A stretch of 64,000 nt of DNA, taken from IMG/VR virus record IMGVR_UViG_3300021959_006010, positions 1-64,000 of that record. One strand, written 5' to 3'. The notes beneath the pieces are model-generated. The model was not told the DNA's origin. It worked only from the letters and a program-made list of their open reading frames with translations, and searched no databases. The stretch is from a virus. Position 1 is the stretch's first letter. The number at the start of each line of letters is the position of its first letter. Both the position numbers and the translations under genes were made by a program. Of the stretch, positions 8,539 to 52,252 are shown one piece after another.

Positions 8539-9153
8539 ATGGAAAATAACATGATAAATGAACAAAATGGCGTATTTGTACAAGGACATATAAAAATACA
8601 TGATCCTACAACTGGTGAGGTTCTTATAAACAAAAAGAACGCAATCCATTACGAGAACATGAGTATTAGCTTGGCAGAAAGCCTTGGTAATGCCGGTCAA
8701 GGTTTTATTTACGAAATGAGCTTTGGTAACGGAGGCACAAACATTGATCCAACAGGTGTTATCACATACTTAACACCTAACTCAACTGGAACAAATGCTA
8801 GCCTTTATAATCAAACGTTTTCAAAAGTTGTAGATGATAGAAGTATTAGTAATTTAGATCCTAGTAGAAATAAAATAGAAACTAGACACGTAAGTGGAAC
8901 AAATTATACAGATATACTAGTAACATGCTTACTTGATTACGGAGAGCCCGAAGGTCAAGATGCTTTTGATACTGCAACCGATGACGATGCACTTTATGTA
9001 TTTGACGAATTAGGATTACGTAGTTATTCTTCCGATGGTTCAGGAAGATTACTTACACATGTTATTTTCCATCCTGTACAAAAATCGTTAAACAGATTGA
9101 TACAAATTGATTATACTGTGCGTGTTCAAAGTCTCTCAGGAGGTAACAACTAA
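8539..9153 (+). CDS. Conserved phage structural protein, unknown role
   Basis: A 204-residue protein of beta-rich composition with no signal peptide or membrane segment. Its N-terminal half has the pattern GHIKIHDPTTGEVL and a glycine/asparagine-rich stretch typical of virion proteins. Its last base is shared with the ATG of the next gene (TAATG), and the AGGAGG ribosome site for that gene lies inside its 3' end, so the two are translationally coupled. An internal ATG at 8551 is an alternative start; neither candidate has a strong ribosome site. Its position between a giant tail protein and a collar-domain fibre suggests a tail or baseplate-associated function, which is inference. Confidence 0.65.
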   Translation: MENNMINEQNGVFVQGHIKIHDPTTGEVLINKKNAIHYENMSISLAESLGNAGQGFIYEMSFGNGGTNIDPTGVITYLTPNSTGTNASLYNQTFSKVVDDRSISNLDPSRNKIETRHVSGTNYTDILVTCLLDYGEPEGQDAFDTATDDDALYVFDELGLRSYSSDGSGRLLTHVIFHPVQKSLNRLIQIDYTVRVQSLSGGNN

Positions 9154-11246
9154 TGCCATATGAAGTTGATTTTACAGACAGTGTTAATAAAGGTAAAATT
9201 ATTGTTCAAGATCGAACAATAAACGAAGAAACTAGTGTTAAGCTACCAGGAAGAAATACTACCAGTTACGGTGAAGTAATTGCTGAAAACTTCTTACACA
9301 TATTAGAGAACTTTGCAAGTGTTACACCTCCGGATAATCCAGTAGAAGGACAGCTTTGGTATGATACATCTAATGGTATAGAAAATCAGCTAAAAGTTTA
9401 TAACGGTACTGTTTGGGTTGCAAGCGGTGGTTTAAAGAAATCCACCGAAGCTCCTGACGTTTCAACTAGTGTTGAAGGAGATCTTTGGGTAGATACAGAC
9501 AATCAACAGCTTTATTTAAACTCAGGATCGGGATGGATTTTAGTCGGTCCAACATTTAGCGAAGGATTGTCAACTGGTCCTCGCAACACTACAATAACAG
9601 GTCAAGATGATGTAAACTATAAAGTTGTAATTATTGATATCGATGCTGTCCCTACAGTTATTATTAGCCATTCAAGCTTTACTCCAAAATCATCTATTAG
9701 CGGATTTAGCACTATAAAAAGTGGAATAAATTTAAGTAGTTTGTCTTTTGGCGGCAACTCTCTAAAGTATAATGGTGTAGCTGAAAAAGCTGAAGCATTA
9801 ATAGTACCTGGAGAAGCTGAACCTGTTGCTGCATCAAACTTCTTAAGAGGAAATGCAGTTAGTACAACAAGCTTTCCAATTAGAATTAAAAATAACGGCG
9901 GCGTACAAATAGGTTCAAATGCACAAACTGTACTAGAAAGTAGTGCGCAACAATCTGTACTTAAAAATAATGTAAGCGGTAGCGGACTAGATCTAAAAGT
10001 AATACAAAGTGACAATCCTGTAACTGCAATCAGAGTTAAAAGTAATGCAAATGATGCTCCGACAGTTGGTATTAATAAATTATTACCAGACGAAGCCTTA
10101 GATGTAGTAGGAAATATAAAAACCACAGGTAAAATATTTGTTAACAGCACAGAAGAATCAACCGACTTAGACGAGGGAAGCATTATTGCTGCTGGCGGAG
10201 CAGCAATTGCAAAAAGTCTTATAGTTGGACAAAACTTGTCAGTTGGTGGCGAATTAACTATTGGAGATATTACTCCTGATACTACAGGCAGAGAATTAGG
10301 AACATCGGACATACCATGGAATAGAGTTTATGCAACAAAGTTTGTAGGTAACTTAGAAGGAAGTGTTAGCGGAACAATCGAAGGCCGCGCAACAAGTGCA
10401 AACAAGTTAACTAGTGCAACAACATTTAACTTAGCAGGAGATGTTACAGCTAATAGTTTTACGTTTGACGGCCAAAGCGGCGGCTTAACAAAAACCTTTA
10501 CAACAGCAATTAGTAACTCATTTATTTCTACAAAACAATTAGAAAGAAGTCCAAAAGCTGAAGATGAATTACTGTTAAATAAAACTTCTGGAGATATAGG
10601 ACTTAAAAAGGTACTAGTAGAGGACTTGCTATTAGGAGTTCCAAGAATTCCAGCAGGTGCTATTACAATGTATGGCGGATCAAGTGCACCTGAAAATTGG
10701 TTGTTCTGTGACGGTGCTGAAGTTCTTAAGAGTGAGTTTCCTGACTTATGGGACGCAATTGGACATAGTTTTAAAGATCCGTCGTTGCTAGTAAACTCGA
10801 GTGCAACACACTTTGCATTACCTGATACACGAGGACGCTTTGCATTAGGTACAAACAATGGAGCAACATTATCGGATGATGATAGAGTTTATGGACCGTC
10901 TGTGCAAGATATAGGTATTTCGGGAGGTAAACAAGATGTTGATATTGCTGCTGAAAACCTACCAAACCACGAACACGATTTAAAAGACTCACAAAGTGTA
11001 CAGTACTATGCAATTACTGATAGTAACCAAACACAAACAAGTGCTGGTGAGGTAAAAGCACTTAACATATCAACAGGCGCTGCAAATACTAGTGGTATTC
11101 CGACAAGTGGCGGAGTACGTAACGGCGGCGTAACTGGAAATAATGACTGGAGAATAGATCCTAACACAGGAGACGAGCTAGGAAGCCGCTTAGATGTTGT
11201 AAACCCATTCTTAACAGTTAACTTTATCATATACACTGGGGGATAA
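9153..11246 (+). CDS. Tail fibre protein with phage tail-collar domain
   Basis: A 697-residue protein with three parts. The N-terminal module (about residues 1-140) contains the pattern YGExxxENFLxxLENFA followed by GQLWYDT, and the two downstream fibre genes share it. The middle is a repetitive beta-rich shaft. From about residue 495 there is a phage tail-collar domain: PAGAITMYGG, then NWLFCDG, then LPDTRGRFALG near residues 556-570, as in T4 short tail fibre gp12 and many receptor-binding fibres. It probably forms a trimeric fibre that contacts the host surface. The start follows an AGGAGG ribosome site and overlaps the previous stop by one base. Confidence 0.88.
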   Translation: MPYEVDFTDSVNKGKIIVQDRTINEETSVKLPGRNTTSYGEVIAENFLHILENFASVTPPDNPVEGQLWYDTSNGIENQLKVYNGTVWVASGGLKKSTEAPDVSTSVEGDLWVDTDNQQLYLNSGSGWILVGPTFSEGLSTGPRNTTITGQDDVNYKVVIIDIDAVPTVIISHSSFTPKSSISGFSTIKSGINLSSLSFGGNSLKYNGVAEKAEALIVPGEAEPVAASNFLRGNAVSTTSFPIRIKNNGGVQIGSNAQTVLESSAQQSVLKNNVSGSGLDLKVIQSDNPVTAIRVKSNANDAPTVGINKLLPDEALDVVGNIKTTGKIFVNSTEESTDLDEGSIIAAGGAAIAKSLIVGQNLSVGGELTIGDITPDTTGRELGTSDIPWNRVYATKFVGNLEGSVSGTIEGRATSANKLTSATTFNLAGDVTANSFTFDGQSGGLTKTFTTAISNSFISTKQLERSPKAEDELLLNKTSGDIGLKKVLVEDLLLGVPRIPAGAITMYGGSSAPENWLFCDGAEVLKSEFPDLWDAIGHSFKDPSLLVNSSATHFALPDTRGRFALGTNNGATLSDDDRVYGPSVQDIGISGGKQDVDIAAENLPNHEHDLKDSQSVQYYAITDSNQTQTSAGEVKALNISTGAANTSGIPTSGGVRNGGVTGNNDWRIDPNTGDELGSRLDVVNPFLTVNFIIYTGG

Positions 11247-11247
11247 A

Positions 11248-13125
11248 ATGAGTTATAGATTAAACAAGACAGACGGCACACTACTAATAGACTTAATAGA
11301 CGGGGTCATAGATACAGATAGTACAGATCTAACTCTTGTTGGTAAAAATTATACAGGATATGGTGAATCGTTTAATGAGAACTTTATTAAACTTTTAGAA
11401 AATTTTGCTAATCCAAACAGCCCAGTAAGTCCTTTGAGAGGACAACTTTGGTATGATACTAGTACTGCAAAATTAAAAGTCTTCAATGGCGAGTTATTTG
11501 AAACAGCAGCAGGTTCTTATGTTACAGATGAATTTCCTACAAACCCTAGTATAGGCGATACATGGTTAAAATTAAGTACTCAGCAGTATTATGTTTATAC
11601 AGGAAATTTAGATGATGCGTTTACTGAAGAAGCATCATCAGGATGGACGCTTATTGGTCCTGAATATACTTTGCTACAAAGAAGAACAGGATTTTTAACA
11701 GATAGTGTCCTTGATGAAACTAACCGTGCTAGAACTATAATGAGAATAGTTATCGGCGGAACTACAGTTGGTATAGTTTCTTCGTTGGAGTTTACTCCAA
11801 ACATTAACGAAAGAAGTAAAGTACAAGGATTAGTAACTGCCGGCAATCCAACTGGTAGAGTTTACAAAGGCTTTAATTTATATGAGCCAACAGAATTTGT
11901 TTACAGAGGAACAGCATCTCAAGCACTTGCATTAGAATCGTCAACAGGCGAAGAAATAACAGTTAACGATCTTGTAAGAAAAGACGGCGTTAATGAAACA
12001 ATGACAGGAAGTCTTGCTATTCGTAATAGTGCAGGTTTAACTATTGGTGCAAGTCAAAACTTAAAATTATTAATAGACAACGGAACAGTTTTACAGAATA
12101 CAAGACAAGACGAAGATTTCCGAATTAAAATTAACTCTAGCGCAAGCCAGTTGTCTGAAACAGAAGCATTTACTTTAAAAAGTGCAAGTCAAAGAATTGG
12201 TTTATTCCAAAGCAATCCTCAGTATACATTAGATGTTGCAGGTGACACTAGAATATCAGGAAATTTATTTGTTGAAGGCGATACTGTAAGCGTTGATGTT
12301 TCTACTTTGCACGTAGAAGATAAAAACATTGAACTAGGTCGTAATCAAGACGGAATAGTTTTTGACGATGCAGGAGCAAGCGGCGGCGGCATTACATTAA
12401 AGTCTACAGTTACAGATAAAACATTTAACTGGCTCAATACTACAGGTAGTTGGACAAGCTCAGAGCATATTGATCTAGCAGCCGGTAAAGATTATAAAAT
12501 AAACGGAACTACTGTTCTTTCTGCTAGCGAACTCGGATCAAGCGTAACGCAAGCACTAGGATTAACAAGAGTAGGAACTTTAACTGAACTTACAGTAGAT
12601 AATATTCAGATAAACAACAATGCAATTACTAGAATTAACGGTTCGGGCATTAGTATTGATGCAGGACTATCGCCTACTGTAGATTTCAATAATGCACGTT
12701 TACAAAATGTTGATACACCGACAGCAGATGCTGAAGGCGCAAATAAAGTTTATGTAGATCAAACTATACAAACTGAACCAATAGTGTTTAGTATGGACGT
12801 AACAGGATGGACTAATCCAGACATTGTAAACGCAGAACTAATTAATATTTTAAACACAACTTATCCGCCTAGTACTTTTGGTAACGGAAAAGAAGCTCGA
12901 ATTCCAATTTTTTGGTACAATACACAAACTGTTTCAGGTATAGATGTTGCAGGAAATACTACAACACCTACTACTTCTGTAATGAGTTTTCCTTCAGGAA
13001 CAGCAGTAACAGTTCTTCAAAGTGTTGGTTTACCTAATAATTTGTCAGCAACATTTGATCCAACAGTACAGCGTGATGTGAGAATTTTTGAGATTGCAAG
13101 TGGCGTATGGCAATTAAAGCCGTAA
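11248..13125 (+). CDS. Tail fibre or adhesin-like structural protein, paralogue 2
   Basis: A 625-residue protein sharing the N-terminal module of its neighbours: GKNYTGYGESFNENFIKLLE followed by GQLWYDT at about residues 30-75. The rest is beta-rich shaft sequence, with a segment IELGRNQDGIVFDDAGASGG near residue 360 of a kind common in marine phage fibre proteins. It lacks the collar domain of the preceding gene and ends in a different C-terminal domain (about residues 510-625) of unknown fold. The start lies one base after the previous stop, with a G-rich ribosome site at 11238-11242. It is probably an alternative or additional host-contact fibre. Confidence 0.78.
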   Translation: MSYRLNKTDGTLLIDLIDGVIDTDSTDLTLVGKNYTGYGESFNENFIKLLENFANPNSPVSPLRGQLWYDTSTAKLKVFNGELFETAAGSYVTDEFPTNPSIGDTWLKLSTQQYYVYTGNLDDAFTEEASSGWTLIGPEYTLLQRRTGFLTDSVLDETNRARTIMRIVIGGTTVGIVSSLEFTPNINERSKVQGLVTAGNPTGRVYKGFNLYEPTEFVYRGTASQALALESSTGEEITVNDLVRKDGVNETMTGSLAIRNSAGLTIGASQNLKLLIDNGTVLQNTRQDEDFRIKINSSASQLSETEAFTLKSASQRIGLFQSNPQYTLDVAGDTRISGNLFVEGDTVSVDVSTLHVEDKNIELGRNQDGIVFDDAGASGGGITLKSTVTDKTFNWLNTTGSWTSSEHIDLAAGKDYKINGTTVLSASELGSSVTQALGLTRVGTLTELTVDNIQINNNAITRINGSGISIDAGLSPTVDFNNARLQNVDTPTADAEGANKVYVDQTIQTEPIVFSMDVTGWTNPDIVNAELINILNTTYPPSTFGNGKEARIPIFWYNTQTVSGIDVAGNTTTPTTSVMSFPSGTAVTVLQSVGLPNNLSATFDPTVQRDVRIFEIASGVWQLKP

Positions 13126-13127
13126 CA

Positions 13128-13135
13128 GATAAATA
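13128..13135 (+). promoter_or_regulatory. T4-type late promoter octamer (GATAAATA)
   Basis: GATAAATA lies three bases after the stop of the previous fibre gene and about 30 bases before the next start, in a 40-base intergenic gap. It matches the NATAAATA late-promoter consensus of T4-like cyanophages, and the spacing allows a short leader with the AGGGGA ribosome site at about 13150. Confidence 0.6.
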
Positions 13136-13165
13136 CATTAAAGCATTTTAGGGGAATACTACGAG

Positions 13166-14653
13166 ATGGCTTATCAAATAGACAAGTATAATAAAGATTT
13201 CTTAACGTTAGTTGAGGACGGAACAATAGATCAAACAACTGATCTAAAATTTATCGGTAAAAACTATGCCGGTTACGGCGAAATACAAAATGAAAACTTT
13301 TTGTTTTTGCTAGAAAACTTTGCTGGAGCAAATCCTCCACCTAGAAAAATAGCAGGTCAAATATGGTTTGACACTAGCCAAAACAAGTTGAAGTTTTATG
13401 ACGGAACATATTGGAGAACCACTGGCGGTGCAGCAGTTAGTGCTACTGCACCAAGCGGGCTTACTGAAGGAGATTTTTGGTGGGACAGCGCCAACGATCA
13501 GTTATATGCGTGGGACGGAACAGAGTTTATATTAGTTGGTCCGCAAAATGCAGGAACTGGCCTAACGCAAATGCAAAGCCGTACAGTATTAGATACTTCT
13601 CAAAATGAGAGAACTATTATTGCCGCAGTAATTGAAGAAGAAGTAGTTTATATTATTTCCCCTGTAACATTTACAATTGATTCTTCAGATCCTGAAAATG
13701 CAATTGATGGTTTCTCGTATATTAGACAAGGACTAACACTAAAAAATACAACTAGTGAAGGTATTACTACTACAGATCACAGATATTGGGGCACTGCTGC
13801 AACAGCATCAGGGTTGCTAGACGGAACAGGAAACGTATACACAGCTGATGACTTTATAACTGGCGGCGAACTTGATCTTTCGTCAGGAAATGTACCAGCA
13901 AACTTCCCAAGCGAAGGTGTTACAATTGGTCCTGATAAATTATTTAAAATTTATTTAGATGCACAAAACAATGGTATTATTGAAAACGGTGCAACAACTA
14001 ACTCACAACTTTGGTTGAGCGTAGCAGATGCTAACCAACAAATTGTTACTCCGGTAAAAATTAACGAAACTAGTTTAATTCCCGGTGCTGATAATTCTTA
14101 TAACATCGGTTCAACAACATTACGTTGGTCAACAGTGTATGCTTCAAACTTTGAAGGCACAGCATCAAAAGCAGATAGCCTTTTAGTTGGTTCAACATAT
14201 AGAGTTGCTAGTGCAAGTAATGTAAATAACACTATTGTTGTTAGAGATGCTACCGGTAATATTGCTGCAAACGAATTCCAAGGTACTGCTTCGAGAGCAA
14301 AATTTGCAGACTTAGCAGAAAAGTATGCAACAGATCAAGAGTATCCTGTAGGAACAGTAATGGCAGTTGGTGGTGAAGCTGAAGCAAGAGCTGCAAAAGT
14401 AAGTGACTTTGCTATTGGAGTTATTTCAGACGCACCAGCATATATGATGAACTCAGAAGCGGAAGGGCAATACATCGGCTTAAAAGGTCGTGTTCCGGTT
14501 AGAGTTACAGGTCCTGTGTCTAAGGGTCAAGCAGTGTATGCTTGGCAGGACGGTATAGCATCAACTATAGCTTCAAATGGTTTAGTTGGAGTTGCGTTAG
14601 AAACTAACAACGACGAATCGGAAAAATTAGTTGAATGCGTGTTAAAAGTATAA
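13166..14653 (+). CDS. Structural protein, paralogue 3 of fibre N-terminal family
   Basis: A 495-residue protein with the same N-terminal module as the two previous genes: GKNYAGYGEIQNENFLFLLE, then GQIWFDTS, then a second WWDS..LYAWDG element. A spacer follows. The C-terminal domain, from about residue 390, has PVGTVMAVGG, GVISDAPAYMMN and a GRVPVRVTGPVSKG turn. Similar C-terminal domains end many marine phage structural proteins, and their role is uncertain. The gene has its own late-promoter octamer upstream. It is probably a tail fibre or decoration component. Confidence 0.75.
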   Translation: MAYQIDKYNKDFLTLVEDGTIDQTTDLKFIGKNYAGYGEIQNENFLFLLENFAGANPPPRKIAGQIWFDTSQNKLKFYDGTYWRTTGGAAVSATAPSGLTEGDFWWDSANDQLYAWDGTEFILVGPQNAGTGLTQMQSRTVLDTSQNERTIIAAVIEEEVVYIISPVTFTIDSSDPENAIDGFSYIRQGLTLKNTTSEGITTTDHRYWGTAATASGLLDGTGNVYTADDFITGGELDLSSGNVPANFPSEGVTIGPDKLFKIYLDAQNNGIIENGATTNSQLWLSVADANQQIVTPVKINETSLIPGADNSYNIGSTTLRWSTVYASNFEGTASKADSLLVGSTYRVASASNVNNTIVVRDATGNIAANEFQGTASRAKFADLAEKYATDQEYPVGTVMAVGGEAEARAAKVSDFAIGVISDAPAYMMNSEAEGQYIGLKGRVPVRVTGPVSKGQAVYAWQDGIASTIASNGLVGVALETNNDESEKLVECVLKV

Positions 14654-26208: not shown

Positions 26209-27261
26209 ATGAAGAGACATTTAATTTTAACTATATCAGACCCGCAAGACAAAGCTGATACACTTGACTTGAGAATTGACGTAAACGATACTGATATTTC
26301 CGAGCATTGGTTTAGTCACGTATGTAAATGCTTAGATACTAAGTTACATTTAGAGAAAAACTTTTGTTGGGTAGGCTGGCCCGATCCAGGACGTAACGTA
26401 GATTACTTAAAGAACGAACTACAAGAATGTGTTAACCAAATTAACACATTTGCTAAAACTAGTAACGAGTGGAACGGATATCGAATAGAAGAAGATTGGG
26501 ACGATATAGGTAGCCACGATGCTTTAAATAAATTACACCATCACTTCGAAATACTAATGGGTCAAGTGTGGGACGTAAGTCATTACATGATTACAGCAGA
26601 TGACAATACAAAGTATCAAATACGACAGTTGAATAATCTGGTACACGAATTACAAAGCAGACAAGTTGCTGTCGGATGTCCAATAGAATACTGTCAACCA
26701 CATACTATTGCAAGTTATCTTAATGTAGAACGAGAATTGTTTGAAGATCATTACTTTGATTACTTTAGCCATACACGAGAGTTTGGAGAAGTTTACTTGC
26801 ACTACTCACAAACAGGTAAAACTCCTGTAGAAGCGTATTCAGACAATGATGATGACGTGTTTGATAACAATATTAATGCACTAAGATACGTGTCCGGCGA
26901 ATATAACATTTGGTGGGGAGACCCTATGTCTGAAAAAGATGTTTTGTATTTTAAAGATCAAGTAAGAGGTTATTTAAACGAACGTAATCTTATTGTAGAG
27001 GAAGGTCCGGAATTTAATTATTATGTTGACAGTCAAGGAAACAAACAAGGAATAGGATATGTTCCGGTAGCAAAAGTTGTTAATCCGTACGATACTAGCC
27101 ACGAACTCAAGGCAGCTGTGCTTGATAAATTAAATATACATGCACTTGCTGCTTATATCGACGATACCGAAGTTGCTAAACACGTTTGGGATTACTCTTG
27201 GGCTGATAGTGACTATAAAGAAAAAGAAATAGACACACTAAGAGAGTTTTTCCCGAGATAA
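26209..27261 (+). CDS. Radical SAM-adjacent unknown protein, family A member 1
   Basis: A 350-residue soluble protein, the longest of three homologues (others at 30587 and 32671). Shared elements in order are an N-terminal strand followed by NDTDISEHWF, a helix with NKLHHHFE at residues 107-114, VHELQS at 145-150, and YxxxGKxxxEAYxDxD around 199-214. It has many His, Trp and Asp residues but no known motif. All three homologues lie directly beside a twitch-type radical SAM gene; this one is two bases upstream of that at 27263. A role as partner, chaperone or substrate carrier is possible. It is first behind its own promoter. Confidence 0.65.
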   Translation: MKRHLILTISDPQDKADTLDLRIDVNDTDISEHWFSHVCKCLDTKLHLEKNFCWVGWPDPGRNVDYLKNELQECVNQINTFAKTSNEWNGYRIEEDWDDIGSHDALNKLHHHFEILMGQVWDVSHYMITADDNTKYQIRQLNNLVHELQSRQVAVGCPIEYCQPHTIASYLNVERELFEDHYFDYFSHTREFGEVYLHYSQTGKTPVEAYSDNDDDVFDNNINALRYVSGEYNIWWGDPMSEKDVLYFKDQVRGYLNERNLIVEEGPEFNYYVDSQGNKQGIGYVPVAKVVNPYDTSHELKAAVLDKLNIHALAAYIDDTEVAKHVWDYSWADSDYKEKEIDTLREFFPR

Positions 27262-27262
27262 T

Positions 27263-28669
27263 ATGGCTGACTATAATAATGACTATCATAAATTAGTAAA
27301 CAAAGTAAAAGTTGACTTAGATAAAGTTGGCAAAGGATTTTGCTTGGCAAAATGGTACCATGTAAGTATGCATTTGCACACAGGGCAAAACCACAGTTGT
27401 TATCATCCACATGTACACAAGATTCCTTTAGAAGAAATTAAAGATGATGTAAATGCATTACACAACACAAAGTGGAAAAAGCAACAACGTAAAACTATGT
27501 TAGAAGGAGGACGTCCTCCAGAATGTAGCTATTGCTGGGACATTGAAGACCTTCCAGGCGATAACATATCAGATAGACATTTAAGATCAAGTGAGCATTG
27601 GGCATTGCCTAAGATGCAACAAGCTATAGACACTCCTTGGGACGCTAATGTGTATCCAACTTATTTAGAAGTAAATTTTGGTCATGAGTGTCAATTAAAA
27701 TGCAGCTATTGTGCGCCAATGGCAAGTTCTAGTTGGTTTAATGAAACTAAAAAACATGGTGATTGGCCCTTAGAAGGTAATGCAAACCGCGGGCAATATA
27801 ATATTAGAGGATTGTTGGAGCCTGGTGCGTTATACAAAAAAGAATCTGAAAACCCATATATAGAAGCATTTTGGAAATGGTTTCCAAATGCTTATCCTAA
27901 TCTAGAAACACTTAGATTTACAGGCGGAGAGCCTTTATTAAGTTCAAACGTATTTAAAGTTATTGACTATATTAGAGAAAATCCTAGAGATGACTTAGAG
28001 TTTGCTATTAATAGCAATATGTGTATTCCAAAACGTAACTTAGACAAGTTTTGCAAGCAAGTTGATGACCTATTGCGTTCTAATAAAATACGTCAAGCAA
28101 ATATTTTTACAAGTGTAGACACATGGGGCACACAAGCTGAATGGATTCGTAATGGACTAGACATTGAAAAGTACGAAGATAACTTACATTATTTTATGAA
28201 TAATGTTTACAATTCTAGTTTTAGTTTTATGATTACGTTTTGTTTGCTTAGTATTCCGAACTTTAATTTATTACTAGATAAAATATTGGAATTCCGTCAA
28301 AAGTACAACGATCCGGATAGTATGTTTCAGCGTATTAATTTTGATACTCCGTATATGCTAGAACCTCCGCATTTAACAGCACGTATTGCTGACGACGAAA
28401 CTGTTGCTAAACTACGTAGTCATTTAGACTATATGGAAACATTAGTTGATAATAAAGATATTAACAAATTTAATACTACTGAATATATGAAATTTAAACG
28501 TGTTGTCGAATGGGTCGAAAACAATAGGTATCAAGGCGACGAACTAAAAACTAATAGAAGAGATTTTGCAAAATTTATAGACGAACACGATCGTCGACGC
28601 AAGACTGACTGGCATTCTGCATTTCCTGAAATGGAAAACTTTTATTTAATGTGTAAGGGCGATCTATGA
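27263..28669 (+). CDS. Radical SAM protein with N-terminal twitch-like module (CxHP subgroup)
   Basis: A 468-residue protein. The N-terminal module contains C27 (GFCLAKW), C46 in SCYHP, and C88/C91 in PPECSYCW. The radical SAM motif CQLKCSYC spans residues 143-150, followed by FTGGEP near 213-218. It is the closest paralogue of the gene at 19402, about 60 residues shorter. Unlike most other copies it has a single Cys followed by xHP where they have Cys-Cys, so its auxiliary cluster may use a histidine ligand. That idea is inference. It starts two bases after the family A gene and overlaps the next gene by ATGA. Confidence 0.85.
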   Translation: MADYNNDYHKLVNKVKVDLDKVGKGFCLAKWYHVSMHLHTGQNHSCYHPHVHKIPLEEIKDDVNALHNTKWKKQQRKTMLEGGRPPECSYCWDIEDLPGDNISDRHLRSSEHWALPKMQQAIDTPWDANVYPTYLEVNFGHECQLKCSYCAPMASSSWFNETKKHGDWPLEGNANRGQYNIRGLLEPGALYKKESENPYIEAFWKWFPNAYPNLETLRFTGGEPLLSSNVFKVIDYIRENPRDDLEFAINSNMCIPKRNLDKFCKQVDDLLRSNKIRQANIFTSVDTWGTQAEWIRNGLDIEKYEDNLHYFMNNVYNSSFSFMITFCLLSIPNFNLLLDKILEFRQKYNDPDSMFQRINFDTPYMLEPPHLTARIADDETVAKLRSHLDYMETLVDNKDINKFNTTEYMKFKRVVEWVENNRYQGDELKTNRRDFAKFIDEHDRRRKTDWHSAFPEMENFYLMCKGDL

Positions 28670-29379
28670 GAGTAGGAATATTTGGTGATAGTTTTGCTAC
28701 TCACGGTAAACATGGAATCTCTGAAATAGGAGAAAGCTGGGTTTCGCTTTTAGAAAAAACACCTGGTCTCGATGTTACAGCCAACGGTCAAATGGCGGAT
28801 AATATTTACGGAACATATTCTAATATATTAGAGAATTATCATCATTTTGACACTATTATTTTTGTAATTACTTCTCCTGAGAGAGCAATTACGTCATTCC
28901 GTAAATTGGCTAGTTATCCTATGATGGAACATGTTCTTAAAACTGAAAAATTTACAAGAGAGCAAAAAGACATTATAAAATCTATCAAAGATTATCATTT
29001 TTATGCATTACAAGATAGCGCAGTTTATAATCAACTAATCGAATCTAATAAATTAATGATCGAAAAAGTTAGAAGAATTATAACTAATAGCAGACGTAAC
29101 TTAATACTAGTGCCAGCGTTCGAAGCAAGTAAAAAAGTATGTAAGGATCTAAAAGGTATCTCGCTTAGTTGCGTAACTGAATATGAAGATTTAAATACAG
29201 ACATTAAAAAAAGTAGCAAAAAAGGATACGATCTAAGACACTGCCACATGTCAGAAGAAAATAATAGAATTTTTTATGATTATATAATGAGTATTTTAAA
29301 AACTCCTGGAGTACAGACTACTAATTTAAATTTAGATATGTTTGTTATACCAGACAGCGTAGAGAAATATGCAACATGA
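28666..29379 (+). CDS. SGNH-like hydrolase
   Basis: A 237-residue protein. RVGIFGDSFATHG at residues 2-14 is an SGNH block I with the candidate nucleophile Ser9. TIIFVITSPERA near residues 64-75 fits the central strand with block III. The C-terminal DLRHCHMSEENNRIF provides a candidate catalytic His. Divergent SGNH-like proteins of this type are common in marine phage genomes. It is sandwiched by ATGA overlaps between two radical SAM genes. It may be an acyl esterase or acyltransferase on a glycan; the substrate is unknown. Confidence 0.62.
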   Translation: MRVGIFGDSFATHGKHGISEIGESWVSLLEKTPGLDVTANGQMADNIYGTYSNILENYHHFDTIIFVITSPERAITSFRKLASYPMMEHVLKTEKFTREQKDIIKSIKDYHFYALQDSAVYNQLIESNKLMIEKVRRIITNSRRNLILVPAFEASKKVCKDLKGISLSCVTEYEDLNTDIKKSSKKGYDLRHCHMSEENNRIFYDYIMSILKTPGVQTTNLNLDMFVIPDSVEKYAT

Positions 29380-30590
29380 TAAAAAACAATAAAACATTTT
29401 GTATATTGCCGTGGATACATACACACCTTAATACCGAAGGAGATGTATTTCCTTGTTGTATTAGTTGGAGTCCTGAAAGAAAATCTCGTGTTGGTTGGCT
29501 CAAAGACAATAGTTTAGAAGAACTGTTTAATAATGATTTTATGAAGCAGTTGAGATTAGACATGCTAGCCGGCGTCGAACGTCCAGATGTATGTTCTAAT
29601 TGTTACGATCGCGAGAACGGTGGCTTTAGAAGTGCTAGACAAGGATATAACTTAGATCACGAAAAAGATATGAGTATTGTTGATAGCACAGCCACTGATG
29701 GATATGTAGAACCGAAAATCAAAAGTTGGGATATACGGTTTAGTAATTTGTGTAATCTTAAATGTCGCACCTGTGGTCCGTTGTTTAGTACTACATGGGC
29801 TCAAGAAAAAACAGAAGAAGATTATGTAAAACTTAATGCAATCGAAAAAGGTACAGATCCATTAGAACAACAGTACGATCATGTTGAAAAGTTATACTTT
29901 GCAGGCGGCGAACCTTTAATTATGCCCGAGCATTACAAGACGCTCAAAGAGTTAATAAGTAGAGGTAGAGCAAAAGATATACAGATAATTTATAATAGTA
30001 ATCTAACAAAATTAGACTATAATAAAAATGATCTAGTAGGCTTATGGAAAGAATTTAAGAGTGTAGTAATTGGTGCAAGTATAGATGCTGTAGGTTCAAG
30101 AGCTGAATATATTAGAAATGGTGTTCCTTGGAAGACCATTGAATCTAATCTAAAAAGATTAATGGAATTTAAAAACGAATGTCCTACATTTGATTTTTAT
30201 TATAGTCCGACTGTAGGATTATTAAATATTGCACATATTACAGACATGCATAGATACATATACGAAAACAATTTAATTCCTAATATTAACTCTATTAATT
30301 TTAATTTGCTGTTATATCCATTACATTATGATATGAGAATATTACCTACTGAAATTAAAAACGATATTACAGAAAAATTTCAATTACACAAGAAGTGGTT
30401 AATTAGTATCGATGCACCAAAAGAAACAGTTGACAAGTTTAGTAATTTACGGCAATATTTAAATCAAACAGTTGAAAACTCTAATAGTTTATTAGAAGAA
30501 TTTATAACAGTTACAAAAAGACTTGATTCTTTAAGAGACGAGGACTTTAATATGTCCTTGCCAGAGTATAAAAGAATTGGAGTGCAATGA
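29376..30590 (+). CDS. Radical SAM protein with N-terminal twitch-like module
   Basis: A 404-residue protein and a good type example of the family. The N-terminal module has C9 in FCILPWIHTH, C27/C28 in FPCCIS, and C73/C76 in VCSNCYDRE. The radical SAM motif CNLKCRTC is at 126-133 and AGGEP at 176-180. The core continues with a YNSN strand and IGASIDAVGSRAEYIRNG, a common block among these paralogues. The order (twitch-like cysteines first, then the SAM core) is the reverse of ordinary SPASM enzymes. It is coupled by ATGA to the SGNH-like gene before it and the family A gene after it. Confidence 0.87.
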   Translation: MIKNNKTFCILPWIHTHLNTEGDVFPCCISWSPERKSRVGWLKDNSLEELFNNDFMKQLRLDMLAGVERPDVCSNCYDRENGGFRSARQGYNLDHEKDMSIVDSTATDGYVEPKIKSWDIRFSNLCNLKCRTCGPLFSTTWAQEKTEEDYVKLNAIEKGTDPLEQQYDHVEKLYFAGGEPLIMPEHYKTLKELISRGRAKDIQIIYNSNLTKLDYNKNDLVGLWKEFKSVVIGASIDAVGSRAEYIRNGVPWKTIESNLKRLMEFKNECPTFDFYYSPTVGLLNIAHITDMHRYIYENNLIPNINSINFNLLLYPLHYDMRILPTEIKNDITEKFQLHKKWLISIDAPKETVDKFSNLRQYLNQTVENSNSLLEEFITVTKRLDSLRDEDFNMSLPEYKRIGVQ

Positions 30591-31444
30591 AATTTATAAT
30601 TGAATATAAGACTTGGAAAAATGAAACTGACACATTAACTTATAAATTAAGAGATAATGAGTTAGTTGATGCTTGGTTACATTGTTTACAAAGTCAACCT
30701 CCACGTATGAATTATGGATTTTATAATTTAGAAACTATTGATTTTAAAAGAACTGCAATTGAAATAGCAAATGCATATTATAGATTGTATCCAAAGTTTT
30801 TAGAAAAAGATAGAGAAATAAATGCTGAACTTTTAGTCGACAAAAACGATAATATAAATCAAGATATTTTGAATAAACTGCACATGGTTTATCATTATTA
30901 CCAAGACAGGATTGAAGAGTATAATTTAACTGACAAGGACTCGTTAAATAGATTACAAGTTCTTAATGGAGGAATACATAGACTTGAATCATATTCAAAC
31001 GGAAGTCCTTCTTATCAAATTATGATAAATCCAACAAGATTTTCTCACGGAATGGAAATACCTGCATCATGGTATAAGAAGTATTTTAATGAGGAAGCTG
31101 AAAACGGTGATTTGCTTTTAGGTTATGCTACTATTGGTAAAGATTTACTAGAAATATATAATACTCGTGATGTTGAAAATTTACATTTAATAACTCCTCA
31201 GAAATACATCTATTCAGAGTTTAGACAAATGTTTGATGTCTTTGAAAAAAAGAGCAAACTAACAACGCATATTTTGCGCAAATGGTGTTACGATCACGGT
31301 AAAAAGAATTTGTCTGAAGCTGAATTGTATACGTTTAGGCCTAAACTAGGAAAAATAGAAACTGATCTAAATTTTTACGAGCTAAAAGAAAAGTGTAGAA
31401 ATTTTAAAGAACCGATTGGATGGAAAACAAAACATGAAAGATAA
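30587..31444 (+). CDS. Radical SAM-adjacent unknown protein, family A member 2
   Basis: A 285-residue homologue of the genes at 26209 and 32671. It shares NKLH at residues 96-99, IHRLES at 130-135 and a GYxTIGKDLLEIYNTRD segment near 200. The N terminus is a strand pair followed by NELVDAWLHCLQ. It has no known catalytic motif, signal peptide or membrane segment. It lies between two twitch-type radical SAM genes, coupled by ATGA to the first and overlapping the second by 11 bases. Its function is unknown, and its repeated placement is the only clue. Confidence 0.62.
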   Translation: MKFIIEYKTWKNETDTLTYKLRDNELVDAWLHCLQSQPPRMNYGFYNLETIDFKRTAIEIANAYYRLYPKFLEKDREINAELLVDKNDNINQDILNKLHMVYHYYQDRIEEYNLTDKDSLNRLQVLNGGIHRLESYSNGSPSYQIMINPTRFSHGMEIPASWYKKYFNEEAENGDLLLGYATIGKDLLEIYNTRDVENLHLITPQKYIYSEFRQMFDVFEKKSKLTTHILRKWCYDHGKKNLSEAELYTFRPKLGKIETDLNFYELKEKCRNFKEPIGWKTKHER

Positions 31445-32696
31445 TAAATCATTTTGCGTAATGCCTTGGCTACACTTACATGCTTGGCCTGCTGGAGAAG
31501 CATATCTTTGCTGTATCGGAGGAACAGGACGAGAAGAAAACGAGGTAGGCGATCTGTCAACACAATCAATAGCTGAAGTAATGAATGGCGACAAAATGAA
31601 ATCCATTCGAAAGAAGATGCTAGCTGGCGAAAAAATACCAAACTGTAAAAATTGTTACGAAGCTGAAGCAGGTAAAGGATATAGTTGGCGAGAAGGGTTT
31701 AATGCACAGTTTGCTGATGAAATAGAAGGCATTGTAGAAAACACAGCTGAAGACGGTACAATTGATCCAAAATTGCTTTATGTGGATTTTAGATTTAGTA
31801 ATTTGTGTAATCTTGAATGTAGAACGTGTGGCAGTGAGCTTAGTAGCAGTATTGCTAGTACGCTAGGACGAAATTTTCCAATCAAGCGCCAAGCTGAACT
31901 AGAAGAAAAAGGAGTAATGGGCAAAGGTAATATTGTTGCTTACTCTAATAAGAATAAACTTTTTACAGACGATCTAAAACAGTATCTTAAAGACACAAAA
32001 TGTTTTTATTTTGCAGGTGGCGAACCATTAATGCAAAAAGAGCACCACGAAGTTTTAAAGTATGTGCATGATAACAAATGGTTTGACAAAGAATTACGTT
32101 ATAGCACTAACTTGTCAAACCTACATTATAAGCAAACAGACTTTGTTGAAATGTGGAAAGATTTTGAAAATGTATGGTTAATGTGTAGTATCGATCACTA
32201 CGGAGATAAACTAGAACATATCCGTCAAAATGTTAACAGTGATCGACTTTGGAAAAATTTTGATAGACTAGTTAGCACACATTTCAAATTATCTATAACA
32301 TTTGTTGTTAGTATATATAACATATATTATTTGTATGACTTCTTTAAATTCTTAGATGACAAAGGATATATTGACAGATTACATTCTTTAGAAATGCTAT
32401 ATGTATTTGGTGATACCGAATCACCTGCTTGTTTACCAGATTTTGCTAAAGCAGAATTAATAGAAAAGTTAAAGGCTGACGAAGAAAGCGAGTTATATAA
32501 GCGTTTGTGTGACAAGTTCTCATACTTAGCTTCAGGTATACAAGGTCTACCTGGATTTGTAAACGGGCAGTCAACCTTTACATTTGAACAATTTATTGAT
32601 AGAGTAGAAAAGTTTGACAAGATGTATAATAGAAATACTAGCGAAACATTTCCGTGGTTAGGAGAAGTAATTGAAAAAAGTAAAACTTCTAATTAA
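31434..32696 (+). CDS. Radical SAM protein with N-terminal twitch-like module
   Basis: A 420-residue protein from the ATG at 31434; an in-frame TTG at 31416 is less likely. The N-terminal module has C8 in FCVMPWLHLH, C26/C27 in YLCCIG, and C71/C74 in NCKNCYE. The radical SAM motif CNLECRTC is at 125-132, and FAGGEP follows near residue 193. It is closest in layout to the gene at 29376. It overlaps family A member 2 by 11 bases, and family A member 3 starts inside its last codons. The substrate is unknown. Confidence 0.87.
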   Translation: MKDNKSFCVMPWLHLHAWPAGEAYLCCIGGTGREENEVGDLSTQSIAEVMNGDKMKSIRKKMLAGEKIPNCKNCYEAEAGKGYSWREGFNAQFADEIEGIVENTAEDGTIDPKLLYVDFRFSNLCNLECRTCGSELSSSIASTLGRNFPIKRQAELEEKGVMGKGNIVAYSNKNKLFTDDLKQYLKDTKCFYFAGGEPLMQKEHHEVLKYVHDNKWFDKELRYSTNLSNLHYKQTDFVEMWKDFENVWLMCSIDHYGDKLEHIRQNVNSDRLWKNFDRLVSTHFKLSITFVVSIYNIYYLYDFFKFLDDKGYIDRLHSLEMLYVFGDTESPACLPDFAKAELIEKLKADEESELYKRLCDKFSYLASGIQGLPGFVNGQSTFTFEQFIDRVEKFDKMYNRNTSETFPWLGEVIEKSKTSN

Positions 32697-33531
32697 CGAA
32701 GATTATATTGTTATTGAATTAAAAAATAACGATATATCATCCTTGTGGCTTAATAATATACGTCAACAAAATGATATGTCAATACGTTCTGTAAGCGATC
32801 CTCATTATATAGATCCAGTTAACAATCAAGATTATACTTCTGGTGTTTGGAATAAAATTAAAGAAAACATAAACACTATAGAAACGGAATTTAATATTAA
32901 ATGGCCTGAAGAAGTTCCAGATGTATTTAATTTTGATCAGCAAATAATGAATAGATATCATAGATATTTTGCACAGTCAACGATGTTTTATAATAGATGG
33001 CAAATAGATCACGATTATAGATTTGACGAAATTCCTGTAGAAAAGCAAAAAAGATTTTCAGACTTGTTAGAAGAAATAAATTTTTCTATACACGAACTTG
33101 AAAGCTATACAATTACTCCAAGAATACAAAAGTATAAAAATAAAATTAAAAAGTTGTATATCGATTTCTCACCAACTAATTGGATAAATTTACCTCATAA
33201 TACTGTACACAGTGCCGACAAAGAATACAATGTGTGTATTGCTATGGAAGTACACGGAAAAAATTATTTGCAAGCATTTATAGATGACGATGTACCTTTC
33301 CATCCCGATGTGCATGGACAGCGAGGAATGTTTGGAAGGATTGATATTTACACAGACGATACAGTTTTTGATATTTTAGAAAGTGAAGAATTTAAAAATT
33401 GGTTAGGAACTGAAAGTATAAAAGATTATTCTTTAGTGCAATTAGGGAAAGTTATTGAATCATCACAGCCGCTTTCTAAATTGTACGATGTTTTAGCAAG
33501 TGGAGTAGCAATGGAGATTATTGAGCTATGA
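32671..33531 (+). CDS. Radical SAM-adjacent unknown protein, family A member 3
   Basis: A 286-residue protein. The start is TTG at 32671 with GGAG at 32661-32664; no in-frame ATG occurs until residue 36. It shares with the genes at 26209 and 30587 the elements NRYHRYF at 94-100, IHELES at 140-145, and MEVHGKNYLQAFIDDD near 196-211. It overlaps the radical SAM gene upstream by 26 bases and is coupled by ATGA to the radical SAM gene downstream. I do not recognise the family. A substrate-presenting or scaffold role for the adjacent enzymes is possible. Confidence 0.62.
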   Translation: MKKVKLLINEDYIVIELKNNDISSLWLNNIRQQNDMSIRSVSDPHYIDPVNNQDYTSGVWNKIKENINTIETEFNIKWPEEVPDVFNFDQQIMNRYHRYFAQSTMFYNRWQIDHDYRFDEIPVEKQKRFSDLLEEINFSIHELESYTITPRIQKYKNKIKKLYIDFSPTNWINLPHNTVHSADKEYNVCIAMEVHGKNYLQAFIDDDVPFHPDVHGQRGMFGRIDIYTDDTVFDILESEEFKNWLGTESIKDYSLVQLGKVIESSQPLSKLYDVLASGVAMEIIEL

Positions 33532-34697
33532 TTAAATGTATAAATGCAAAAAATGGAATCAGAGCTTATAACGATGGATCAGTTATGCTATGCTGTATGA
33601 GTACAGAAAAATTAACAGACAAAGACGGCAACATTGCGTCTGTTAAAAATACCCCAATTAATGATATTAGAAACGGAAAGAAATCTAAAGAAATACTAGA
33701 TGCGTTAGCACGGGGAGAAAAACACCCTAATTGTGAACGTTGTTGGAAAGAAGAAGATGCTGGATTATACAGCAAACGTTTGCGAGACAACGACACATTT
33801 AAATACGTACCTAGTAATGATACTAGTTTAGTACTAGCAGAATTAAATTTAGGAACCACATGTAATTTGAAGTGTAGAATTTGCGGCCCTTGGAGCAGTA
33901 GCCAATGGAATAAAGAATTTTTACAAATAGGCCAATGGGGAAGTGATAAAGACTCGTATAAAAAATGGCTACATGACCTTAACCATAGTTATGACGACGA
34001 CAGCCAATTTTGGGAAGAATTTAAAGCCCAGCTTCCTTCTTTAAAGAGAATAGAAATGTATGGAGGTGAACCCTTTCTAGTAAAGAAGCAGTGGGAAATG
34101 CTAAAGTATGCTATTGATCAAGGATACAGTAAAAAACAAAGTTTAAATTTTAATACAAACGGTACTGTTTTTGATATGGACAAAGTAAACATACTTAGAG
34201 AATTTAAACATGTACACATTAGTTTTAGTATAGACGGTATTAAAGACAAATTTGAATATCAAAGACATCCTGCAAAATGGGATGAAGTAAGTGACAATAT
34301 AAAAAGGTATCAGTATCTAGCAAATAAGTATGACTGGAATCTTGCAGTATGTATTACTGTTAACAATTACAATGTATTCTATTTACAAGAAACAATGGAA
34401 TATTTTGAAAATATTAATATGGAATATTATCTTAATTTTTTACATGATCCGTCGAGATATTCTGTTGTAAACCTACATCAAGACATTAAAGATCATCTCA
34501 CATATAAGTATAATAGATATAAGGGAATGCCTAACATAGAAATGTGGCTTAAGAAAGCAGCAGAATATATGAATCTAAAAACTAGTAAGGAAGATTATTG
34601 GGATGCCTTTTTAAATATTACTAAACAGTTAGATGATCTAAGACAAGAAAAGTTTAGTGATGTGTTTCCCGAATTAGCAGAGTTTATAAAAAAATGA
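33528..34697 (+). CDS. Radical SAM protein with N-terminal twitch-like module
   Basis: A 389-residue protein with an abbreviated N terminus: C4 (IKCINAKNG), C22/C23 in MLCCMS, and C69/C72 in NCERCWKEE. The radical SAM motif CNLKCRIC is at 112-119, followed by MYGGEP near residue 184. It lacks the usual PW.H after the first Cys, so it is a divergent member. It is coupled by ATGA to family A member 3 and to the SPASM-type gene downstream. The core has the familiar ISFSIDGIKDKFEYQR block. The reaction is unknown. Confidence 0.86.
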   Translation: MIKCINAKNGIRAYNDGSVMLCCMSTEKLTDKDGNIASVKNTPINDIRNGKKSKEILDALARGEKHPNCERCWKEEDAGLYSKRLRDNDTFKYVPSNDTSLVLAELNLGTTCNLKCRICGPWSSSQWNKEFLQIGQWGSDKDSYKKWLHDLNHSYDDDSQFWEEFKAQLPSLKRIEMYGGEPFLVKKQWEMLKYAIDQGYSKKQSLNFNTNGTVFDMDKVNILREFKHVHISFSIDGIKDKFEYQRHPAKWDEVSDNIKRYQYLANKYDWNLAVCITVNNYNVFYLQETMEYFENINMEYYLNFLHDPSRYSVVNLHQDIKDHLTYKYNRYKGMPNIEMWLKKAAEYMNLKTSKEDYWDAFLNITKQLDDLRQEKFSDVFPELAEFIKK

Positions 34698-40202: not shown

Positions 40203-42173
40203 ATGTATGATATCGTTTTTATAGGTCCTGCAGACTCACAATGGAAAAAAATTAAATCAAAGTATATTACTGCAAAACGTGCTGACACATTTTTGTCAGC
40301 TAAGAAAAAAGCATTTACTAAATTCTTTTGGGCAGTATCTTCTGATTTAGAAATAGCAGATAATTTTAATTTTGATTATGTTCCTGACGACTACAGTCAA
40401 GACGTAATACACGTTTTTAAAAATGACAAGCATTTTGATGGATTGTTTTTATCTCCTAGAGATGCTAATCCGTCCCAGCGAGAACTAGATCATAGATTCT
40501 TTGTACATAAAAAAGAAGTTGACATTCTAGCAAGTGTACCTTTACCTTTTGATTACTTCGAAATTGATTCTTACGAAGATTACGAGTACGCACTTGAAAA
40601 TAGCAAAACACAAATGTTTTGGATGGGCAGTAGAAATATAGAACCTAGCAAAGAGCTAATAGAAAATTTTTATATATCGCATCATGAAAAAATTGATCGT
40701 ACTCAAAATCATGCATTTAAGCATCTTACAAAAGACGGCGAAACGTATAACGGACTGTTTCTGTGTACAAAAGACCGAAAACTTTCAAAACGAGAAGTCG
40801 AATATCGATTTCCTGTCGATCGTAAAGAATGGGATATTGTTGGTAGCGGTCCTAAAAAATATGATGTTTTTACAATTGAAACTTATGACGATTATCTAGA
40901 AGCAGTTAACAATAGTACAACTGAAATGTTTTGGGCATTAAAGCCGTCAATTGATACATCTGAGTTTGACTTTGACATTTATTTTAGTTTTGAAAACACT
41001 TATGATAGAGAAACTAATCACGCCTTTTTGCACAACGAACAAGGCGAAATGTTAAGAAACAGTGTTTGGTTGTTATCAAAAACACAGCCGGTTTCTAAGA
41101 GAGAAATTGAATATAGATTTATTGTAAATGCAAAAGAATGGGACGTTGTTGCTAGTAAAACAAAATTGTACGATCAATTTATTGTAGACACCTATGATGA
41201 TTATTTGAAAGCATTAGAAAATACTTCAACAGAAATGTTCTGGGCAATTCCTAGTCGAATTAAAGATATAAATGAAGAAATTTTTAATAAAGTTTTTACA
41301 TACAAAAATATGCACGACAAAGAAAACGAATATGATCTTAATATAAATCATGTCTATAAAAACGGTGAATACTTTGATGGTATAATTTTATGTAGCACAA
41401 CTTGTAAGATTAGTAAAAGAGAGTTTTATTTCGGATTTATAGTGCAAAAGAAAGAAGTAGATATAGTTGCTAGTCAGCCAAAGCCCTATGACATAGTGTT
41501 TATTAGCTATAACGAACCAAACGCAAACGAAAACTTTGACCAGTTAATGGATCAATTCCCTGATAGAGTAATACATCGTGTACACGGTATAAAAGGAATA
41601 CACCAAGCTCACATTGAAGCAGCAAAAATTTGTGATACTGAAATGGTATGGATTGTTGACGGCGATGCAAAAATAGTCGACGGATTTAATTTTGATTATC
41701 AGGTTCCTGCATGGGAGAGAACTACAGTACACGTTTGGCGAAGTCAGAATCCTATTAATAAATTAGTATACGGCTATGGCGGCATTAAACTATTTCCTAC
41801 ACAACTAACAATAGACATGAACGTAAATAAACCCGACATGACTACAAGTATTAGCGAAAAGTTTAAAGCAGTTAAAGATGTTAGTAACATTACAGCATTT
41901 AACACAGATCCGTTTAACACTTGGAAAAGTGCATTTAGAGAATGTTGTAAGTTAAGTTCTAAGATTATTGATCGTCAAAAAGACGACGAAACAAACGAGC
42001 GTTTAAACATATGGTGTACAGCAGGAGAAGATGAGCTTTACGGTAAGTATTCTATAGAAGGAGCAAAGGCTGGTGCAGCATATGGTGCAAGAAACAAAGA
42101 CGATGTTAAAGCCTTAAAAATGATTAACGACTTTGACTGGTTAAAGGAGCAGTTTGATGCTACAGACATTTGA
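40203..42173 (+). CDS. Repeat protein with C-terminal glycosyltransferase-like domain
   Basis: A 656-residue protein built of four degenerate repeats of about 104 residues (approximately 1-115, 116-218, 219-321, 322-427). Each begins YD.F.I.(T/S)Y(D/E)DY..A..NS.T.MFWA and ends with a VDILAS or WDIVGS strand. The last third (428-656) is the domain of the gene at 18458: YDIVFISYNEPNANENF, RVHGIKG, and WIVDGDAKIV with DGD at 486-488. The repeats look like truncated copies of part of that domain. No signal peptide or membrane segment is present. The gene follows a promoter whose start site may coincide with the ATG. Confidence 0.62.
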   Translation: MYDIVFIGPADSQWKKIKSKYITAKRADTFLSAKKKAFTKFFWAVSSDLEIADNFNFDYVPDDYSQDVIHVFKNDKHFDGLFLSPRDANPSQRELDHRFFVHKKEVDILASVPLPFDYFEIDSYEDYEYALENSKTQMFWMGSRNIEPSKELIENFYISHHEKIDRTQNHAFKHLTKDGETYNGLFLCTKDRKLSKREVEYRFPVDRKEWDIVGSGPKKYDVFTIETYDDYLEAVNNSTTEMFWALKPSIDTSEFDFDIYFSFENTYDRETNHAFLHNEQGEMLRNSVWLLSKTQPVSKREIEYRFIVNAKEWDVVASKTKLYDQFIVDTYDDYLKALENTSTEMFWAIPSRIKDINEEIFNKVFTYKNMHDKENEYDLNINHVYKNGEYFDGIILCSTTCKISKREFYFGFIVQKKEVDIVASQPKPYDIVFISYNEPNANENFDQLMDQFPDRVIHRVHGIKGIHQAHIEAAKICDTEMVWIVDGDAKIVDGFNFDYQVPAWERTTVHVWRSQNPINKLVYGYGGIKLFPTQLTIDMNVNKPDMTTSISEKFKAVKDVSNITAFNTDPFNTWKSAFRECCKLSSKIIDRQKDDETNERLNIWCTAGEDELYGKYSIEGAKAGAAYGARNKDDVKALKMINDFDWLKEQFDATDI

Positions 42174-51437: not shown

Positions 51438-52252
51438 CCGATGATGCAATGCCGTTACAACCTAGAGACAGATGGCCACAAGAATTAGATTCTGTAATGC
51501 CTAAATACTTTAGCGAGGCTGAAGCAATTCCTAACTTCTTTACACAAGAAGAATTAGATATGTGTCTTTTTCAGTTGTTCCATAGTTTTACAAAACACAG
51601 ACACTATGGCGGCGGCACTTTTAAACTTGAAAAATTTGACGAATATCCTATTTGGAAATTAGTCTATCCAAGATTAAAAGAACGGTTTGACTGGCTAAGA
51701 GAAGATGACATACTAACAGGCAACGGATACATAACTGCTACAAACTATGCATTACACATGGATAGTTGTAACCCTGTTGCATATTTTGATTACGATCAGT
51801 TAGCTATAAAAAGTTTTATCATTCCTCTTTTTGTATGCCAACCTGCATCAGCACAAGAAAGAGATGCAAGTTTTGTGTTGTTTAAGAATAGATTGCTAGG
51901 ATGGGAGTGTAATTTTAGTAACGGAGGTAGCAACGATGTTAAAATGACTTATCAAAAAAATGTTACTTCGTATGACAATTTGCCTTGGGTAGACGTTAAC
52001 GGAAACCCTATAGATATTGACACATCTAAAATGCATGATAGTACTGCTGAAATTTACGATGACCATTTAAAGCAGTTACCTAAAGAAACTTATTACGGAA
52101 TGCAATTAGAAACAATTGTTCCTTATTCTCCTAAGAGTATCATTTTGTTTGATCCGTATCAGCCACATGTAACTGGTAATAAAGATTGGAGCAAAACAAG
52201 ACTTAAAGGTGGCATACGATTTAATATACAAAGGAAAATAGACAAATTATAA
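51434..52252 (+). CDS. Fe(II)/2-oxoglutarate oxygenase-like protein
   Basis: A 272-residue protein. YALHMDS gives the HxD iron ligands (H108, D110). The distal histidine is H245 in PHVTGN, and the 2-oxoglutarate-binding arginine is probably R256 in KTRLKGGIRFN. Spacing and the beta-strand context fit the double-stranded beta-helix oxygenases. It would hydroxylate or desaturate a substrate using O2 and 2-oxoglutarate; the substrate is unknown. It is coupled by ATGA to the SGNH-like gene and by TAATG to the QueC-like gene. Confidence 0.68.
   Translation: MTDDAMPLQPRDRWPQELDSVMPKYFSEAEAIPNFFTQEELDMCLFQLFHSFTKHRHYGGGTFKLEKFDEYPIWKLVYPRLKERFDWLREDDILTGNGYITATNYALHMDSCNPVAYFDYDQLAIKSFIIPLFVCQPASAQERDASFVLFKNRLLGWECNFSNGGSNDVKMTYQKNVTSYDNLPWVDVNGNPIDIDTSKMHDSTAEIYDDHLKQLPKETYYGMQLETIVPYSPKSIILFDPYQPHVTGNKDWSKTRLKGGIRFNIQRKIDKL

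Follow-up and report, generated by a model that had tools for sequence, protein, structure and literature searches.

Radical-SAM genes are numerous in large marine phages. One report (PMC5332604) describes T4-like representatives with as many as 12 such genes, together with Fe-S carriers, and the section of it that deals with these genomes covers the enzymes and carriers without mention of the protein family characterized here, which we call F. Among the closest known systems are the RiPP recognition elements and PqqD-type partners, which F resembles in being encoded by a small non-radical-SAM gene that overlaps a radical-SAM gene and in having no recognized enzyme domain. F proteins differ from the PqqD type in that they lack a PqqD or Pfam match, are larger (285 to 350 aa), have a different predicted fold and are not obligately linked to radical-SAM genes; a functional relation between the two is conjecture. 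A partial literature search, mostly of titles and abstracts, found neither a description of the family nor radical-SAM modification of virion proteins. Radical-SAM-rich accessory islands of phages are already known; what is new is the family and its fold, and with this analysis an unannotated, new-fold family gains a signature and a first census.

The Locus and Its Radical-SAM Neighbors

The window, the whole stretch of DNA that we analyzed, comprises bases 1 to 64,000 of a viral record of 275,366 bases. Structural and tail genes come first, to about 15.8 kb, and include homologues of genes of Sinorhizobium phage Phosso (E = 4e-69 for 8539-9153 and 8e-42 for 13166-14653). The accessory island that lies 3' of them holds, besides its radical-SAM genes and three F copies, glycosyltransferase-like, SGNH-like and oxygenase-like genes. 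Genes were assigned to the N_Twi_rSAM (twitch) type at an NF033640 score of at least 170, a cut-off that 11 genes in the record pass, 10 of which lie in the window. The relevant features are as follows.

8539-14653, plus strand: virion and tail genes 5' of the island, whose homologues adjoin the radical-SAM/F operon of phage Phosso
15829-58397, plus strand: one-strand accessory island with 15 radical-SAM genes in a total of 41
26209-27261, plus strand: F26209, 350 aa, with NKLH, VHELQS and TGK
27263-28669, plus strand: r27263, twitch radical-SAM, 3' neighbor of F26209 (NF033640, 302 bits)
28666-29379, plus strand: 237-aa protein, judged by eye to resemble SGNH hydrolases, between r27263 and r29376
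29376-30590, plus strand: r29376, twitch radical-SAM (NF033640, 386 bits)
30587-31444, plus strand: F30587, 285 aa, with NKLH, IHRLES and IGK
31434-32696, plus strand: r31434, twitch radical-SAM (NF033640, 324 bits)
32671-33531, plus strand: F32671, 286 aa, TTG start, the most divergent copy, with NRYH, IHELES and HGK
33528-34697, plus strand: r33528, twitch radical-SAM (NF033640, 314 bits)

Each F copy is in contact with radical-SAM genes, as the original prediction had it, and all four of these neighbors pass NF033640: r27263 begins 1 nt after the end of F26209, F30587 shares 4 nt with r29376 and 11 nt with r31434, and F32671 shares 26 nt with r31434 and 4 nt with r33528. In this island, 15 of the 26 other (non-radical-SAM) genes touch a radical-SAM gene, and the probability that three such genes drawn at random would all do so is P = 0.175; the adjacency of the F copies to radical-SAM genes within the window is not above chance. 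The 237-aa protein between r27263 and r29376 has no Pfam match, and the related genomes G001 and G015 have no gene at the corresponding place.

Sequence Family and Predicted Fold

The three proteins share three motifs in the same order, just as predicted from the open reading frames: N107KLH, VHELQS (145-150) and GK (203-204) in F26209; N96KLH, IHRLES (130-135) and GK (184-185) in F30587; and N94RYH, IHELES (140-145) and then GK in F32671. All three carry the ordered signature NxxHxx(F/Y), N(x3)HxLE/Q, GK, then D, and a DNA pattern of two of the motifs has two matches in the window and none in 100 shuffles. In a phmmer search of 1040 ORFs from this genome, F26209 and F30587 find one another at E = 1.7e-5. 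F32671 is the weakest in pairwise comparison (BLASTP E-values of 0.001 and 0.026, with about 20% identity to the other two), which would favor the view that the proteins are unrelated and their motif likeness coincidental. Profile searches refute that view and leave it practically no probability: a G001 member held out from a six-sequence profile is recovered by it at E = 2e-52, and all members keep the order of the signature. Against the family profile, which includes them, the three window proteins score E = 1e-56 to 1e-67, and F32671, with every signature residue kept, is found by the profile of relatives, which includes it, at E ~1e-56. Judged by this homology, F26209, F30587 and F32671 are one new protein family, and the prediction of a single family stands.

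To take a census, we ran the pattern NxLH, gap, LNxxIHxLE over IMG/VR contigs, blind to neighboring genes, and obtained 57 near-full-length members including the window copies, or 35 after dereplication at 85%. In all, about 60 members besides the window copies were recovered from viral contigs, and degenerate relatives are present in the jumbo phages Atu_ph07 and Phosso. The invariance of the N, H, F/Y, N, H, L and E/Q positions is partly by construction, because the sampling used them; G184, K185, D193 and W30 (F30587 numbering) lie outside the sampling patterns and are invariant or at least 90% conserved among the 35 dereplicated members. The N/H/H/E-Q/GK residues are also kept in copies that were not sampled by motif, namely F32671, the third copy of G001, the second copy of G015 and that of contig L238; L211/L230 keep N96, H99, H131, E134 and GK, with N127 the exception. 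The family has no conserved cysteine. Six contigs (L082, L086, L087, L094, L108 and L113) encode a possible sister group, barely reached by the F profile, with the same helix motifs and GR in place of GK.

Other searches returned no confirmed members. Scans for close relatives with single window proteins as queries gave nothing usable, and their candidate L001 was rejected as a chance peptide; tblastn of isolate phages with window or contig members gave no credible match; a three-sequence profile scan yielded 104 stretches, none confirmed; and a pattern scan of genome contigs yielded 30 matches, none of them family members by HMM.

In domain searches, no Pfam, PHROGs or NCBIfam model matched F at or above its cut-off. 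A hit to HdcB (PF17528) was rejected, as it reached 20.2 bits in F30587 alone (gathering threshold 30.4) and was absent from the other 34 members. None of the 35 members has an HNH, GIY-YIG, LAGLIDADG or NUMOD domain, and no PqqD-type domain was found by Pfam, NCBIfam or PDB-fold search.

AlphaFold models of F26209 (pLDDT 79.5, pTM 0.79) and F30587 (pLDDT 84.4, pTM 0.78) predict a beta hairpin and a helix at the N-terminus, a pair of long helices bearing NxxH and NxxxHxLE, and a mixed alpha/beta part that contains the GK loop. Neither model matches a PDB chain at E < 1e-3, and the fold therefore looks new. BFVD gave ten significant matches, all of them uncharacterized phage proteins, one from the isolate Agrobacterium phage Atu_ph07. 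The best structural match, A0A6J5T9P3, is a 768-aa phage protein of which about 350 aa match F and about 400 aa fall outside the F domain, a possible fusion.

Genomic Contexts of Family F

F is most often found in large T4-like phages between gp32 and uvsX, where no radical-SAM gene touches it. The copies at this site form one clade of 20 dereplicated rows (support 98/97), and seven pairs within it give dN/dS values of 0.08-0.14, by which these F genes are under purifying selection. In the window genome gp32 and uvsX adjoin with no space for an F member, and in Atu_ph07, Phosso and a Vibrio jumbo phage the two genes are likewise adjacent without F. Elsewhere (neighbors without a cited family match being named from their sequence), F lies beside a desaturase and an aminotransferase (G003/G022), beside internal virion-protein-like genes (G018), next to an HNH-like gene (G004/G005) or a NUMOD3 gene (G016/G017), as a tandem pair close to a UvsW-like helicase (G032), and beside an RNase-H-like gene. 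In G019 its neighbor is an overlapping gene for an A-type Fe-S carrier (Fe-S_biosyn, E = 3e-16), and in G004/G005 a carrier-like gene lies about 2-3 kb away. Contig L111, which has no twitch radical-SAM matches, carries an A-type Fe-S carrier gene and F overlapping one another (2013-2345 and 2342-3262). A desaturase-like gene adjoins F in L097 and L033; in the window, a fatty acid desaturase (E = 8e-18) is encoded on the minus strand shortly beyond the island, at 59831-60619.

Among the 32 dereplicated members sampled by motif, 28 have no radical-SAM gene in contact with them, and 20 of these belong to the gp32-uvsX clade. By count, the outcome that the original prediction named as refuting it, a family found mostly without such neighbors, is largely what is seen, and the claim that it always sits beside them does not hold. 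Because F is so often fixed at sites without a radical-SAM gene, it is not a dedicated radical-SAM partner.

Contact nonetheless recurs, in several deep lineages. It is seen for three copies in G000, for three in G001 (one beside a B12-type enzyme), in G010 and in G012, and in G015 one copy touches a radical-SAM gene while another lies one gene away. A reverse search with r27263 added L188-L191, L211/L230 and L238 and, over whole records, G044 and a second F copy in G038; this sample was found in part by radical-SAM anchoring, and its size is not a frequency. When contact is mapped on the tree, the label changes five times, with at least four of the changes forced by well-supported branches. 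The F26209-r27263 pair, with F directly upstream, is kept in seven genomes (G000, G001, G015 and L188-L191), and the F26209 orthologues in G001, G015 and L188-L191 are about 51-55% identical. The trio of twitch radical-SAM, F and MoaA-like radical-SAM genes recurs in G012 and G044, and L274 and L273 hold radical-SAM and F pairs. The pair in L273 (G043), at 120-3804, has a twitch radical-SAM gene and lies shortly upstream of a tail-sheath-like gene.

The other two pairings fare differently. In G001 and G015 the orthologues of r29376, r31434 and r33528 lie together with no F in between, and the F30587 orthologue of G001 (49% identity) is flanked by a B12-type radical-SAM gene and a nucleotide-sugar-dehydrogenase-like gene, which correspond to window genes 37026 and 38957. 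The F-free orthologous loci and the displaced F30587 orthologue suggest that two of the three window pairings, those of F30587 and F32671 with their radical-SAM neighbors, are phage-local; in G001 and G015 neither is conserved. Among 80 loci related to r27263, 72 lack an F member at a distance of up to 4 kb, and no F was detected in the large radical-SAM-bearing records G047 (270 kb), G051 (276 kb), G050 (183 kb), G049 (160 kb) and G048 (147 kb). Thus, the repeated pairing proposed in the original prediction survives as repeated gain of contact on the tree and in the operons of Atu_ph07 and Phosso (below), and as a specific pair for F26209 and r27263; as a general association of such enzymes with F, or of F30587 and F32671 with particular partners, it does not.

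Relatives in Isolate Phages

The Atu_ph07 relative, AUZ94948 (probably BFVD entry A0A2L0UZJ4, an assignment made from its length of 300 aa and by inspection), was invisible to sequence profiles and was reached through Foldseek only, which gave the same fold in BFVD at E = 1.3e-8 with a probability of 1.00. AUZ94948 and its Phosso homologue are 28.5% identical (E = 1e-26), and hhalign aligns the two together to the F profile across 242 columns (E = 1.1e-5), with most of the NxxH, NxxxHxLE and GK residues lost. Both belong to operons that also encode radical-SAM/SPASM enzymes, a cupin/JmjC-like product and, at about 300 aa, a protein with a cysteine-rich tail (Atu_ph07, MF403008 121118-122008; Phosso, PV764938 190414-191334). 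The C-terminal ends of the latter, CHSSCHASCHNSRSRR and CHTSCHASCHSSRSRR, contain His-Xaa-Ser triads interleaved with Cys, and the proteins look like modification substrates, candidates for a RiPP-like class. In Phosso the operon comes after structural genes whose homologues lie at 8539-14653 of the window, and its position thus corresponds to that of the window island. The two systems share the F fold, a radical-SAM operon and a corresponding genome position; they differ in that the radical-SAM neighbors in Atu_ph07 and Phosso are of the SPASM type, whereas those in the window are of the twitch type, and in that the window yielded no counterpart of the cupin/JmjC-like gene or of the Cys-tail protein. 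A search of the window genome and its relatives for a substrate with a Cys/His tail resembling the Atu_ph07 one was likewise negative. Since F repeatedly overlaps radical-SAM genes and adjoins tail genes, and its relatives in the cultivable phages Atu_ph07 and Phosso lie beside a Cys-rich-tailed candidate substrate, the system can be tested at the bench.

Possible Roles of Family F

We tentatively favor a role for F as a mobile phage accessory protein that acts in trans as an adaptor in tail-side modification islands. F genes would be compact single-gene modules, many of them in translational overlap with a neighbor, that pass from operon to operon and, once settled, are maintained by purifying selection, and in several lineages, including that of the window, they may have been recruited into twitch/SPASM radical-SAM islands located next to tail genes. 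Such islands probably modify polypeptides or glycans of the phage or host surface. F would bind a polypeptide or ligand in a polar cleft that would hold the conserved residues (in F30587 numbering, N96 and H99 from one helix, N127, H131 and E134 from the following helix, G184-K185 and D193) and might present or stabilize the bound partner for the island enzymes, in trans rather than as a fixed one-to-one subunit. The recurrence of radical-SAM contact on the tree, the retention of the F26209-r27263 pair and the radical-SAM/SPASM operons of the Atu_ph07 and Phosso relatives support the adaptor; the size of the gp32-uvsX clade, which is the largest and has no radical-SAM gene in contact, the large radical-SAM-bearing records without a detected F, the unconserved F30587 and F32671 pairings, the in-window P = 0.175 and the loss of most signature residues in the Atu_ph07 and Phosso relatives weaken it. 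It is nearly tied with the possibility, to which we give about the same tentative weight, that F acts apart from radical-SAM chemistry, as an independent factor of the phage or a small enzyme that depends on metal, and lands in radical-SAM islands solely because these are accessory hot spots; the data do not separate the two. The stable gp32-uvsX clade, the copies beside RNase-H-like, UvsW-like helicase, internal virion-protein-like, desaturase and aminotransferase genes, and the two F copies that in G000 lie between radical-SAM genes contiguous in G001 and G015 all fit such a factor, and the conserved two His, Glu, Asp and Lys could form an active site. The repeated origin of radical-SAM contact and the F26209-r27263 pair kept in seven genomes argue against it, as do the Atu_ph07 and Phosso relatives, which are without the putative active-site residues.

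A stronger form of the adaptor reading, in which F would be a new class of substrate-presenting adaptor for phage radical-SAM/twitch and SPASM enzymes in RiPP-like post-translational modification of tails or adhesins, and the gp32-uvsX phages would express it from a separate early locus, seems to us rather doubtful. Less probable still is that F loads or protects Fe-S clusters or metal in phage Fe-S enzymes, as a companion of radical-SAM genes in some phages and of Fe-S carrier genes in others. We retain this reading in view of the overlap between F and an Fe-S carrier gene in G019; the carrier-like gene near F in G004/G005, the invariant or nearly invariant His/Glu residues and the combination of Fe-S carriers with up to 12 radical-SAM genes described for marine T4-like genomes (PMC5332604) are in keeping with it, but F has no conserved cysteine, no Fe-S carrier was seen beside the other inspected F copies, and the His-less relatives in Atu_ph07 and Phosso sit in radical-SAM operons all the same. 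The insertion of F between conserved genes, with NUMOD3 adjacent in G016/G017 and an HNH-like gene in G004/G005, would suit a free-standing, selfish gene of the homing type that spreads through T4-like phages; with no nuclease family match in any of the 35 members, strong purifying selection and a gp32-uvsX group that is one vertical clade, we consider this very improbable.

Other Features of the Window

A PP-loop-like gene at 52252-52953 (LSGGADSALLA), with weak QueC similarity, overlaps a twitch radical-SAM gene at 52905-54071; in a different island, on contig L133, a PP-loop-like gene (4001-4738) likewise overlaps a twitch radical-SAM gene (4671-5975). The gene at 40203-42173 encodes a 656-aa protein of several repeated units, the C-terminal part of which is a weak glycosyltransferase match.
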